In this document: positions 2,048 to 33,666 of the stretch, one piece after another | Layout: the number at the start of each line of letters is the position of its first letter | How positions within the stretch are numbered: position 1 is the first letter of the stretch | Assembly: GCA_000806015.1 (NCBI GenBank) | Contig: JWKY01000003.1 | Location: forward strand, 1 to 33,763 | DNA from: an archaeon GW2011_AR19 | Lineage (GTDB): Archaea; Nanobdellota; Nanobdellia; Pacearchaeales; GW2011-AR1 | DNA length: 33,763 nucleotides | Direction of reading: 5' to 3' | Translations under genes and position numbers: made by a program | Notes under the pieces: model-generated | Seen by the model: the letters and a program-made list of their open reading frames with translations, nothing else | What the model was told of the DNA's origin: nothing | Database searches by the model: none

Positions 2048-2131
2048 GCGGGAGTGTCGGAGTGGTCAAACGAGCAGGACTTAAGATCCTGTAGCTTAGT
2101 GCTTGCGCAGGTTCGAATCCTGTCTCCCGCA
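2048..2131 (+). tRNA. tRNA-Leu (anticodon UAA)
   Basis: Acceptor GCGGGAG/CTCCCGC, anticodon arm CAGGA-CTTAAGA-TCCTG, long variable arm, T-arm GGTTCGAATCC, discriminator A. Confidence 0.95.
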
Positions 2132-12530: not shown

Positions 12531-13499
12531 TTATTTTAGATAATTTTCAGTTATTCTACTGATTAACTTAATTAATTTTTCCGGTTTAATCGCACTCCCG
12601 CTTAATCTCGGGCTCCCGCCGATTAAATCACTTCCGCCCCATTTTTCATTTTTCTTTCGCTTGACATTCTTGGAAAGCGAATGGAAACTTCCTGTTTGCT
12701 TTTTTTCAATTTTATTTAATTCAGCATAAATTTTTTCTAAAGGAAATAAAACAAATGGATTGGTTTTTAATAAAACATAATTATAATTTTCATTTCTTTT
12801 TTTAACTAAAATAATTTTATTAATTCCGTTTTTTATAAATTTCATTCTTGCATAAGGCCCTATTTCTTCAATCATGTGGATATCTTTATTAGACTGAATT
12901 AATTTGTATTCCGTATCTAAATCAGTCATCTTGCATTTACCTTGAGAATATTTGTCTATTCTTGTTAATACTTCTTTAATTAAAATTTTAATTTCCCCAT
13001 TAGTCATTGTATAAAGTTTATTTGTATAGCGTGATTTAATATAAGGCTCAAATACCCAGGCAACTTCTTTCATAATTTTAGAATTAGTATCAAAAGGATA
13101 AGTTCCTCCAGTAATATCTAATTTGTCTTCTATTTCAACTAATTTTTCGATTAAAGGCTCATCATTTTTCATTATTCTTTTATAATTAAATAACAGCCAT
13201 AACGATAAGCAAACATCCTGGTCAGGATCATTTACATAGACGTTGATTTTTTGATTGTCTGAATTAAAAAAATTTTTAATCATTCCTTGTTTTATAAAAA
13301 AATAAATTTGGGCAGAAGTGCTTTTTGTAATCAGCCTGTTAACACCTTCGTGATGATTAATATTTAATCTTCGCCCGTCTATTTGATGATTAGTTGGTCC
13401 GGAAACATAACCATCTAAAGCAATGGAAAATCTCGGACTTTGAGAGATAAAATTTTTCCAGGTTTTTGTGACTCCTTTTTCAACTATTAATTCAATCAT
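12531..13499 (-). CDS. DHH-phosphoesterase-like conserved protein containing an in-frame repeat insertion
   Basis: NINHHEGVNRLITKSTSAQI, NDPDQDVCLSLWLL, C-terminal WGGSDLIGGSPRLSGS (DHHA1-like). ATG at 13499 is ~25 nt from TATA-like CTTATAAATCC, so it is preferred over 13514. Confidence 0.6.
   Translation of the reverse strand: MIELIVEKGVTKTWKNFISQSPRFSIALDGYVSGPTNHQIDGRRLNINHHEGVNRLITKSTSAQIYFFIKQGMIKNFFNSDNQKINVYVNDPDQDVCLSLWLLFNYKRIMKNDEPLIEKLVEIEDKLDITGGTYPFDTNSKIMKEVAWVFEPYIKSRYTNKLYTMTNGEIKILIKEVLTRIDKYSQGKCKMTDLDTEYKLIQSNKDIHMIEEIGPYARMKFIKNGINKIILVKKRNENYNYVLLKTNPFVLFPLEKIYAELNKIEKKQTGSFHSLSKNVKRKKNEKWGGSDLIGGSPRLSGSAIKPEKLIKLISRITENYLK
12655..12704 (-). repeat. Palindromic repeat family P2, copy 1 (in-frame, encodes KQTGSFHSLSKNVKRK)
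   Basis: TTTCGCTTGACATTCTTGGAAAGCGAATGGAAACTTCCTGTTTGCTTTTT, 44/50 identical to 28205-28255; contains TTCGCTT...AAGCGAA stem. Confidence 0.85.
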
Positions 13500-13727
13500 A
13501 AGAAGATAGAACAAAGTGGATTTATAAGATTTATTATAAAAATTTGCGAGAATTACCTGCTCGTTTCATTAGACCACACTTGGGTGAATGCGTCAAAAAT
13601 TTCCTATTTTTGTTCCTTTTTCATTCGCAAAAATTAAGAAGATTGCCACAACAACAAAGTTCAATAAAATGAATTAATCAATTAAAATAATTAATAATTA
13701 TAAAAGCTGTCTGGGCTGGTGGAGGGG

Positions 13728-13907
13728 GCGAGCAAGTTCACGGAGGACAAATTATTTTTTATAAATTACCGAGTGAGCTTGGGAGTAGAAGTGCTGGCGA
13801 GTGATTTCGCGAGACAAACTTATTTTATTTACTTGCATTAATGCGAGCGGGGTCGGGAGTTGGGTGGAGCAAACGATGGTGCGAGCAAGTTTACGAGATA
13901 AACTTCC
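13728..13907 (+). repeat. Tandem degenerate copies (about 2.5) of GC-richer repeat family P1
   Basis: Units begin GCGAGCAAGTTCACGGAGGACAAA (13728), GCGAGTGATTTCGCGAGACAAACTTA (13797), GCGAGCAAGTTTACGAGATAAACTT (13881), with NCGAGYGRGSTYGGGAGT second halves. Confidence 0.75.
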
Positions 13908-24007: not shown

Positions 24008-24289
24008 TTAACATCCTCCGACCATTGCGCTTGATGAAGATGAAGTTGCGCTACCTCCAGCTCCTGCTGGAATTATTCCATGCATTTCATAATTCATTAT
24101 TTCATCTTCTGTCCAGCCAGTTGTATCTATTTTACTATTAACCGATTTCCCGGCAATGTTTGCGCTTCCTGCCTGAAATACAAGATATAAAGCAACTAAA
24201 AATAAAACTCCTATAACAACCCACATTATTAGTTTTCTTTTACATTGTAGCTTTTCTTTTTCTAAAAGAAAAACCCATTTTTTATCCAT
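24008..24289 (-). CDS. Single-TM protein ending MVGGC, paralog of the 55-aa protein
   Basis: MDKK...LIMWVVIGVLFLVALYLVFQAGSANIA...SSSSSAMVGGC. Start at 24289 (GGAGGGTGTTAAAATGG) preferred over track start 24364. Confidence 0.75.
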   Translation of the reverse strand: MDKKWVFLLEKEKLQCKRKLIMWVVIGVLFLVALYLVFQAGSANIAGKSVNSKIDTTGWTEDEIMNYEMHGIIPAGAGGSATSSSSSAMVGGC

Positions 24290-24290
24290 T

Positions 24291-24965
24291 TTAACACCCT
24301 CCGACCATTTCCCCGCCAGATGAAATTTGCCCCTGCTCTGCTCCTCTGTATAAATTGCTTGCAAGATTTACATAATCTGTAGAATCTATTCCATTTGCTT
24401 CAAGAACTTTTGCTTTTTGTTCGTGAATTCCAGGGAAAAATAAAACTTTCCATTTTCCTAATTCAGATAATATTTCATAGTCAGACATTTCAGGATTATT
24501 AATAAGAAGATATTTAGCCAGCCCTCTCATTGCATAACTATGCGCGCATCCGCAGGCTGCCTGACCGTTTGGAAAAATTATTGCATCAGCGCCGCAGCAA
24601 TACTCGCAACTTATTGCGCTTCCTATTTTAATATATCTCGCCATCTGCTCGCTGTTCAGCTCCTTGCTTTCATATGAACTTAATTTTTGAATTACTTCAT
24701 TAGCAAGTTTAGGATTGCTTGCAGAAACATCGTCGTAGCTAACTCCTAATGCTGAACCATAAACTGCAGGAACTCCTGTTGGAATTATATCTGAGCTTAA
24801 AATAGTCGCTCCAGTAATTCCGGCGTCGCCGCTAATATTTGCTCCCGGATTTCCATAAATTTTGCCAGCAGCAAAAACTATAATTAATGCCAATGCTGCA
24901 ACTATTCCTATTTGAATATAAAATTCAACATCTGTTTTTTTTGTTTGTTGACTTGCACTTTCCAT
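24291..24965 (-). CDS. TM-anchored Cys-rich protein (CEYCCGA...CGCAHSYAMRG) ending MVGGC
   Basis: One N-terminal TM; ISCEYCCGADAIIFPNGQAACGCAHSYAMRGLAKYLL; ends GGEMVGGC. Confidence 0.82.
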   Translation of the reverse strand: MESASQQTKKTDVEFYIQIGIVAALALIIVFAAGKIYGNPGANISGDAGITGATILSSDIIPTGVPAVYGSALGVSYDDVSASNPKLANEVIQKLSSYESKELNSEQMARYIKIGSAISCEYCCGADAIIFPNGQAACGCAHSYAMRGLAKYLLINNPEMSDYEILSELGKWKVLFFPGIHEQKAKVLEANGIDSTDYVNLASNLYRGAEQGQISSGGEMVGGC

Positions 24966-27065: not shown

Positions 27066-27230
27066 TTACAAGCTCACTCGCGAAGTCGCTCAGATTTTTT
27101 AATAAATTGATTGTAACAGCTTTTTGATTATTAATTGCCGGGATTAATTCAACTTTTTGAGATATTACGGTGATAACTTTTTTCTTAGCATAGAAATCTG
27201 CACTTGTGCGATTTCGGAGCAAATAAATTC
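27066..27230. repeat. Two degenerate fragments resembling family P1
   Basis: agctcactcgcgaagtcgctcaga (RC TCTGAGCGACTTCGCGAGTGAGCT) at ~27071-27094 and TGTGCGATTTCGGAGCAAATAAATT at ~27205-27230. Confidence 0.4.
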
Positions 27231-27265
27231 ATTTTTCCTTTGGAAAAATGCAAATTTAAAAAATC

Positions 27266-28162
27266 TTAAATCCTAATCTCCCCAGTCTGCCAATCTCTTA
27301 AAATATGTCTTGCTGTTCTGTCTTCATCAACAAACCCGCCTTTTTTTAAAAATCCTTTTTTTCTTCCAAGTTCTTCAATTAAAATTTCTGAATCTCCGTT
27401 GGTTTGAATATCATAAAATTTTTCTAAAATCTGAGGATAGACGCTGATTAATTTTGCAACTACAATTTCCGGATCTTTTACCTGGCTAAATGAACGGCCT
27501 CCGGCTATTGTTTGTTTTGATATTTTGTCTTTTTCAAGGTGAGTGTATTGTTCTTCCGGAATTACTCCCGGGCTGTCAAGTATAAAAATATTCTCATCTA
27601 ATTTTAATTTTTGAATTCCTTTTGTAAATCCCGCTTCTGAACCGACTCCTGCTGAACTTTTCCCAATTAACAAATTTATCAAAGAACTTTTGCCTGTATT
27701 TGGGTAGCCAATTATTCCAACAAGAATTTTTTCTCCAAAAGGTTTTTTAATTTTTTTAGATAAAATTTTTATTAAATTCCTTAATTTTTTTATATCCCTC
27801 CTTTCTTTACAGGAGATTAAAATGCTCGGAAATAAATTAATTTTCTTTTCTTTTTTATTTAATAAAAGATCTGATTTATTTAAAACATAAATCAATTTCT
27901 TATTTTGTTTATGCCCTTTATGCAAAATTTCCTGTTTTGTATCTTTATGCCCTTCCTTAGGGTATTCCTTAGGGTATTTTTTTATTTGCTCTTCAATTTC
28001 AGGGTTTCTGGTTTCTTCAATAAATCTTGCATCAAGAATCTCCAAAATTATATCTGAATCCCGAATAATTTTTAAAATAAGCATTGGATATTTCCCGCGT
28101 TGTTTGTTTATATTTTCAGTATGCCTTGTTCTTCTTGAAGAAAAACTGTATCTTGGTTTCAT
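27266..28162 (-). CDS. Circularly permuted GTPase (YlqF/RbgA/MMR_HSR1 family)
   Basis: DSDIILEILDARF, YVLNKSDLL (G4), GYPNTGKSSLINLL (G1), DSPGV (G3). Probable start MKPRYSFSSRRTRH at 28162; the track extends to 28324 through a repeat. Confidence 0.88.
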   Translation of the reverse strand: MKPRYSFSSRRTRHTENINKQRGKYPMLILKIIRDSDIILEILDARFIEETRNPEIEEQIKKYPKEYPKEGHKDTKQEILHKGHKQNKKLIYVLNKSDLLLNKKEKKINLFPSILISCKERRDIKKLRNLIKILSKKIKKPFGEKILVGIIGYPNTGKSSLINLLIGKSSAGVGSEAGFTKGIQKLKLDENIFILDSPGVIPEEQYTHLEKDKISKQTIAGGRSFSQVKDPEIVVAKLISVYPQILEKFYDIQTNGDSEILIEELGRKKGFLKKGGFVDEDRTARHILRDWQTGEIRI

Positions 28163-28167
28163 TTGAT

Positions 28168-28256
28168 AAACTTCCTGTTTAGCGAATGAATACAAAAATT
28201 TCTTGTTTCGCTTGACGTCTTCGGAAAGCGAATGAAAACTTCCAGTTTGCTTTTTG
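28168..28256 (-). repeat. Repeat family P2, copy 2 plus an adjacent partial copy
   Basis: TTTCGCTTGACGTCTTCGGAAAGCGAATGAAAACTTCCAGTTTGCTTTTT, 44/50 identical to copy 1; partial AAACTTCCTGTTTAGCGAATG at 28168-28188. Confidence 0.82.
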
Positions 28257-28440
28257 CTTTCATAGATAATTGATGAAAAAGCAGTTTTTAAAAATAGCTG
28301 GTTAAGAAAACCCTTAAGATTCAAAAATTTATAGAAAAGTATTTAAAGAAAAGTGATTTTTTCTATTTAAATTTGTCATTTTTGTATAAAGACACAAACT
28401 TTATAAATAAATTTAAGCAAAATATCTAAAAAACATTAAA

Positions 28441-30563: not shown

Positions 30564-30676
30564 CGCCCCGTCCGAGATTCGAACTCGGGTCACCGCCGTG
30601 CTTTCTCGCTTCACTTGAAGTTATCTCGTATGACGAGCTGAAAGGGCAGCATTCTTGGCCACTGAACTAACGGGGC
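30564..30676 (-). tRNA. tRNA-Glu (UUC) with a ~40-nt intron after position 37
   Basis: GCCCCGT...CTGCC-CTTTCA|GCTCG...AAGCA|C-GGCGG...CCCGAGTTCGAATCTCGGACGGGGC; intron ~30599-30638. Confidence 0.92.
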
Positions 30677-33061: not shown

Positions 33062-33520
33062 TTATCTTCGTTTTCTTGTATCCTTCCAAGCAACAAAGCC
33101 TAAAATAATTAGAGATGCTATTCCTGCTAATCCTCCTAATAAAGGAATTATTCCTGCAAGAGGAACTAATGCCAGCCATCCGGGATAGTTTCTAATTTCA
33201 AAAATTCTCCAGCGCGCAATTATACCCAGCACAGCGAGAATAGCCCATCCGACAATAGGAATTAGCCATAAGAATGCCCACGCCCAGTGGAATTTTCCTA
33301 AACTAAGAACTAATCCAGTTCTTGCAAAAGGAATCCAGGCAAGCCAAGAATTTTTATGTTTTAATTTTTTTCCAATTGTTGCCCAAGCAAGCGAAGTATA
33401 TATCCAAACTGCAATAAGAATTATTACAAAAAGAACAATTGCTCCGATAATTAATGCTCCAAGAACGCTGCCAGTAATTGCATCTGTAATTGCTTTTGAT
33501 AGTGTTTCTGTTAAAGTCAT
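33062..33520 (-). CDS. Small multi-TM protein, DUF5684-like
   Basis: Four hydrophobic segments; SWLAWIPFARTGLVLSLGKFHWAWAFLWLIPIVGWAILAV; SD AAAGGAGGTGAAAAATG. Confidence 0.75.
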   Translation of the reverse strand: MTLTETLSKAITDAITGSVLGALIIGAIVLFVIILIAVWIYTSLAWATIGKKLKHKNSWLAWIPFARTGLVLSLGKFHWAWAFLWLIPIVGWAILAVLGIIARWRIFEIRNYPGWLALVPLAGIIPLLGGLAGIASLIILGFVAWKDTRKRR

Positions 33521-33666
33521 TTTTCACCTCCTTTCATTTGAATTTTTTCCTGAAATTTAAATGAATGAAAATTTTTCCTGAATTTGCTTTCAATTCTTTT
33601 TAAGATATATATTAAAGTAATTTTGTCTTTTTATATCTTGTGAAAGAGATTTTTACAAAATTTTAA

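Follow-up and report, generated by a model that had tools for sequence, protein, structure and literature searches.

Can a short palindromic repeat enter protein-coding genes in frame in an archaeon, as Rickettsia palindromic elements (RPE) do? The window analysed here, the whole stretch of 33,763 nucleotides from contig JWKY01000003.1 of archaeon GW2011_AR19, raises this question because two copies of a palindrome of about 50 bp are found on its minus strand (12655-12704 and 28206-28255). The original prediction described the two copies as alike and placed them, in one and the same frame, in two unrelated ORFs encoding a DHH-like protein and a GTPase. They are indeed identical at 44 of 50 positions. 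The differences were also rightly assigned mostly to the loop, since four of the six lie between the TTCGCTT/AAGCGAA arms; two of these four form a compensatory G-C/A-T pair.

The genome of origin (GW2011_AR19 MAG, G000; 678 kb, 74.5% complete) was compared with two sister genomes, G002 (Nanoarchaeota MAG C24_maxbin.164) and G001 (Candidatus Pacearchaeota NC_groundwater_125_Ag). All genomes used are draft MAGs, and the three of this genus are 75-93% complete. Searching G000 with the first 50-mer recovered the second window copy (E = 6.5e-13) and two copies on other contigs (2.3e-12 and 5.1e-11). A covariance model (R1), built from ten copies of the repeat unit that we call B, gave more than 20 matches in G000 at E < 1e-3, about ten in G002 and one strong match in G001, the best E-values reaching 1.6e-17.

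The 45-bp unit B inside genes

Two features define the first locus:
12531-13514, minus strand: host ORF, DHH-like protein, with a conserved C-terminal WGGxxxIGGSPR motif 3' of the insert
12657-12701, minus strand: B unit of 45 bp (15 codons), in frame in the DHH-like protein, peptide KQTGSFHSLSKNVKR; there are homologs without it, and its removal restores the linker

The segment is absent from the G001 homolog and from those of six bacteria (Sungbacteria, Planctomycetota, Gemmataceae, two Uhrbacteria and one other); among the homologs compared, it is present only in the G002 ortholog, which is 88% identical. When the 45 bp AAGCAAACAGG...CAAGCGA (12657-12701) are taken out, the linker reads E-KKKNEK-WGG and has six residues, as in most bacterial homologs (for example E-GTTDDR-WGG). 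The AlphaFold2 model has a mean pLDDT of 85.7, and its sole internal stretch with pLDDT below 50 (residues 276-285) lies in the insert. Given the restored linker and this low-pLDDT segment, the DHH-like segment is a 15-residue loop insertion common to two sister species. The proposed in-frame invasion of this ORF is thus borne out by the homologs without the segment. The original prediction had staked itself on two points, that most homologs would be free of the segment and that the genome would hold further copies, and both agree with what was found. The host protein had no match in Pfam or NCBIfam, and a Foldseek search with its model ranked DHH-superfamily entries at the top, none of them significant, so that the name "DHH-like" is tentative.

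Fifteen B copies from six genomes align ungapped over 45 bp and share two hairpins, AAAC/GTTT and TTCGYTT/AARCGAA, the latter with an inner C-G/G-C. Double-sided changes occur in 7 of the 13 pairs, with 24 compensatory cells, and none of 500 shuffles reached this score, a control that can be inflated by sequence kinship; sliding the partners collapses the signal. RNA folds of single copies were no better than those of shuffles, and the structure claim therefore rests on the covariation. All three sense frames are open in 11 of the 15 copies (2.4% of shuffles), and several copies have only two open. Being a multiple of three in length and usually free of stops, B can land inside a gene, adding 15 residues; it would be tolerated as a frame-neutral spacer, mostly in flexible loops or tails.

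The hosts are varied. Within G000 and G002, B is read in frame in the DHH-like protein, in uL24 of G002 (a C-terminal insert seen by comparison with G001), in the C-terminal tail of a protein on contig C143 of G002 and in the tail of a membrane protein (contig C17 of G000, C24 of G002); in a signal-peptide protein of G002 it lies directly 3' of ATGAAA. In-frame hosts in other genera are thermosome and ScpA (G097), eS6 (G130) and TFE (G071). The constant frame assumed from the two window copies does not extend to the family, as uL24 and the C143 tail read B in another frame than the DHH-like protein. At the C-terminus of HisRS, the unit of G000 has 47 bp, so that the frame is shifted; G002 keeps a remnant and G001 is empty. 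The copies on contigs C138 and C143 of G002 are identical over the 45-bp unit and lie in unrelated genes and in different frames, which argues for recent movement. B is therefore dispersed and multicopy, occurring in the genome of origin and in congeners, at intergenic as well as intragenic sites, and B-like copies were found in 6 of the 87 genera of the family.

The start-codon unit A

The second window copy lies in a different context, defined by the following features:
27266-28162, minus strand: GTPase related to YlqF (ribosome biogenesis; TIGR03596), start set from the sister species
28163-28263, minus strand: 101-bp insertion at the GTPase start codon, made of a 56-bp A unit and a nested 45-bp B unit (101 = 56 + 45); site empty in G001 and G002
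28208-28252, minus strand: B unit nested in the A unit
28159-28263, minus strand: predicted leader mini-ORF MKAKSKLEVFIRFPKTSSETRNFCIHSLNRKFIK followed by a stop, whose TGA overlaps the GTPase ATG (ATGA); read from the sequence, with other A units following the same grammar

Instead of lying within the GTPase ORF, as had been thought, this copy is part of an insertion at the start codon of the gene. The empty site of G001 reads ...TTAAATTATTT joined directly to ATGAGACTAAGATAC, while the window reads ...TCAATTATCT, then the 101 bp, then ATGAAACCAAGATAC; the G002 site is also empty. The GTPase matches TIGR03596 with E = 1.3e-36, which is below the cut-off of that model. The claim of a common frame holds as a reading of the sequence, but the copy at 28206-28255 is upstream of the true ATG (28162). 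Since the sister GTPases start at this position without the insert, translation probably reads this copy in a different frame, as part of a predicted leader mini-ORF, and the TTG start call gives the GTPase a spurious N-terminal extension of 54 residues. B is nested in the 56-bp A unit after ATGAAAGCAAA. The same A+B composite is found on contig C8, upstream of a gene, with a different 56-bp A subtype; subtracting B from it leaves a canonical 56-bp A unit.

A second A unit of the window precedes another gene:
33538-33593, minus strand: A unit of 56 bp with a TTG start, mini-ORF ending in ATGA; R2 match at E = 6.8e-9

It is followed by a mini-ORF, MKGGEK and a stop, whose last bases form the ATGA of the gene behind it (33062-33520).

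A units were collected with a second covariance model (R2), which gave 32 of them in the genus at its threshold of E <= 1e-3. At E <= 1e-5, A-like matches are present in 27 of 141 genomes and in 20 of the 87 genera of the family. Class-level searches with R1 and R2 (285 genomes each) returned matches within this one family only, and no Rfam family matches the A or B elements. The A units are 47-62 bp long and are located exactly on the start codon of a gene. Each has a mini-ORF of 16-21 residues with its own ATG at the start, and all share one grammar, in which ATGAAAGCAAA.. is followed by TTTTCATTCATT, by a stretch rich in GGA and by ATGAAA. Of 27 units from other genera, 25 have a mini-ORF that opens at the first ATG and closes with the TGA contained in the ATGA of the gene start; their lengths are 47, 50, 53, 56 or 62 bp (binomial p ~2e-10). 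Within the genus this rule holds for 18 of 25, and most exceptions terminate no more than 4 nt from the start or continue into the following unit. Family-wide, 33 of 40 distinct units have a length of 2 modulo 3, by which the mini-ORF ends in an ATGA overlapping the next start codon.

Such an overlap predicts termination-reinitiation, which has been experimentally shown for ATGA in an archaeon (PMC6728339). The insert carries a GGA-type ribosome-binding motif, its own start and an open frame and would return the ribosome to the original ATG; translation of the downstream gene would then proceed by termination-reinitiation at the end of the mini-ORF. Unit A would then be tolerated as a coupled mini-cistron that preserves translation. 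In units without a close upstream gene, TATA-like motifs are most frequent at -27 to -29 relative to the first ATG, a position that suggests that the mini-ORF may be leaderless. Eight of 10 A folds have the gene AUG largely base-paired, which is less the case after shuffling. The motif TTTCATT can pair with the 5' or the 3' ATGAAA, giving two possible, mutually exclusive hairpins, and this pairing may keep the gene start codon masked as long as no ribosome has traversed the mini-ORF. The peptide itself was considered as a conserved feature and set aside, as two frame variants (MKANRKFSFIR and MKAKTGSFFIH) both keep the ATGA relation; we therefore favour selection that would act on coupling rather than on the peptide.

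Several other repeats and features were recorded. A second insert within the GTPase reading frame (about 27905-27982, minus strand), KKYPKEYPKEGHKDTKQEILHKGHK, is absent in both sister species and contains a different small repeat, TACCCTAAGGAAGGGCATAAA. The uL24 of G002 (L098 7113-7700, contig C173) has a seven-residue insert, YPKEGHK, from a 21-bp repeat of the TACCCTAAGGAAGGGCATAAA type, and its C-terminal stretch KPETQPSPRDTQGGHENPKEGQDLQAGDSG recurs in another ORF of C173. In G000 (L094 2436-2678, G000:C1), the uL24 frame ends early at KIIVGKKNNRTKKGTGNN and the downstream DNA is still gene-like, indicating a frameshift or an assembly error. Elsewhere in the window, a repeat of 50-60 bp (24224-24292) belongs to another dispersed family, of which the G002 contigs hold many copies at 91-98% identity, and the repeats at 13729-13789 and 27144-27262 are dispersed too, being common to several G001 and G002 contigs. 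Two tRNA matches (30564-30676, minus strand; 2048-2131, plus strand) measure 113 and 84 nt, and at least the longer one may hold an intron.

Turnover, relatedness and spread of the units

Occupancy of the same start codon varies between the sister genomes. At uL14, G000 has a 47-bp unit, G001 a 56-bp unit of another subtype and G002 an empty site. L7Ae has A only in G000; as this gene begins with ATGACT, the insertion site is the start codon, not AAAG alone. The leaders of thermosome and of C8_9562 contain A in G000 and lack it in G002, the number of units at L41e is three in G000 and one in G002, and both genomes have A at the Rpp-like gene. Over several genera, A units recur 5' of uL14, of phosphoglycerate mutase (PGM) and of the Rpp-like gene.

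Both units start with AAAGCAAACAGGAARTTTTCATTCG; A (v1) ends with GAGGACAATCAAATGAAAG and B with GAGGACGTCAARCGAAAG. Moreover, R1, built from B copies, matches an A copy at 4.5e-9. From these similarities, we infer that B may be an A-like unit in which RCG has replaced the ATG and the opposite arm has changed to compensate. Several tandem A/B-like units, read in frame, also make up the C-terminal tails of the orthologous membrane proteins (G000:C17 18281-18387 and G002:C24 867-965), and these tails are very different in the two species.

Taken together, we consider it quite probable that these repeats form a dispersed, mobile, non-autonomous palindrome family of a Pacearchaeota family, with B inside genes and A on start codons with a putatively coupled mini-ORF. 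Several observations count against this reading: searches for a mobility enzyme found none, the HisRS copy of B shifts the frame, some B copies have only two open frames, single copies fold no better than shuffles, and some A units do not follow the ATGA rule. In addition, A recurs before the same genes across genera, as might be expected of long-standing leaders with a function and not of mobile DNA. A units would then be ancient, vertically inherited, attenuator-like leaders and B units decayed leaders captured by read-through, as suggested by the presence of A at uL14, phosphoglycerate mutase, the Rpp-like gene and L41e in several genera and by the strong constraint on the ATGA grammar. However, the same start codon can be empty, occupied or filled by another subtype within one genus (uL14, L7Ae, GTPase, L41e), B lies mid-gene in unrelated genes (DHH, thermosome), and two of the B copies, from unrelated genes, do not differ anywhere in the unit; we thus regard vertical inheritance as unlikely, and for B the mid-gene insertions already refute it. 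We give practically no credit to the DHH segment being an ordinary variable linker with a chance look-alike as second copy: its position in a low-confidence loop would suit this explanation, but E-values of 1e-11 or better, dozens of copies, the covariation and the exact 45-bp length speak against it.

How the units would spread is a separate matter. The Y1/RAYT transposase (PF01797) is absent from the three genus genomes (75-93% complete), in searches where the positive controls were detected. The unit ends are short direct repeats (AAAG/ATGAAA), from which a target duplication is indistinguishable. A serious candidate, to which we give somewhat less than an even chance, is that ATGAAAG/AAAG microhomology between existing copies lets the units spread through template switching or gene conversion, with no transposition enzyme: the direct-repeat ends AAAG and ATGAAAG, the nesting and tandem arrays of units (L41e, thermosome leader, C17/C24 tails) and the lack of a Y1 transposase in the genus favour it, whereas the sites are unlinked and share no flanking homology beyond a few bases. 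Within the mobile-family reading, a more specific scenario seems to us evenly balanced between true and false. It would be a class of mobile DNA that targets ATGA start codons, in which a mini-cistron of about 50 bp re-supplies the ribosome-binding motif and the start, couples the gene and rewires leaderless archaeal genes, including those of ribosomal proteins, and from which an ATG-less derivative would have given the 45-bp, frame-neutral B.

Relation to known palindromes and significance

The closest functional analogues are the RPE (PMC2229807, PMC2996958; Ogata et al. 2000, 2002, 2005). Like B, the RPE and the Wolbachia protein-coding palindromes are dispersed palindromes, both intergenic and in frame in conserved genes, with multiple open frames, tolerance in loops and no known mobility enzyme. 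They differ in length (105-146 bp for RPE, PMC2229807, and 45 bp for B), in the two short hairpins of B, in the archaeal host and in the start-codon form with its putatively coupled mini-ORF. RPE proper are further set apart by the host of the present units, a Pacearchaeota-like MAG, and by matches confined to one archaeal family in the class.

An archaeal RPE-like family had been expected to be notable, and a dispersed family is indeed present in this archaeon. An earlier study described palindromic repeats with coding potential from Methanocaldococcus jannaschii (Suyama, Lathe and Bork 2005; cited by PMC2229807 and PMC2996958). By their description in these citing papers, on which the comparison is based, they are archaeal palindromes, some of them fused into protein genes, and an archaeal family of coding palindromes is therefore not unprecedented. 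They belong to a different lineage, and we know of no start-codon form among them.

REP/BIME elements with RAYT, and the GTAG and CGTC REPs (PMC3733652), are likewise short mobile hairpins, sometimes found in genes, and CGTC occurs in many B hairpins; in B, however, it is inside the hairpin and not at its foot, and the genus has no Y1 transposase. MITEs (Correia/NEMIS, ERIC, RU; PMC2229807) are also non-autonomous and sometimes fused in frame, but the elements described here are much shorter and show neither a clear TA target duplication nor terminal inverted repeats of the classical kind. Overlapping ATGA gene pairs (PMC6728339) share with A a stop/start overlap expected to couple archaeal translation, except that here the upstream cistron is a mini-ORF of 16-21 residues brought by the repeat. 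B is a new archaeal protein-coding palindrome, and for the start-codon form A no description was found in searches of an open-access collection of papers.

These units extend protein-invading palindromes to DPANN archaea, where they hit core machinery (chaperonin, ribosomal proteins, TFE), and the empty sites in sister species allow the relative dating of insertions. Gene callers probably set wrong starts at A loci, as the TTG call of the GTPase illustrates. Finally, the example of unit A suggests a way for selfish DNA to remain harmless, namely by letting translation continue across the stop/start overlap, and such a unit would offer a simple route by which a leaderless gene gains a leader, a mini-ORF and coupled translation.
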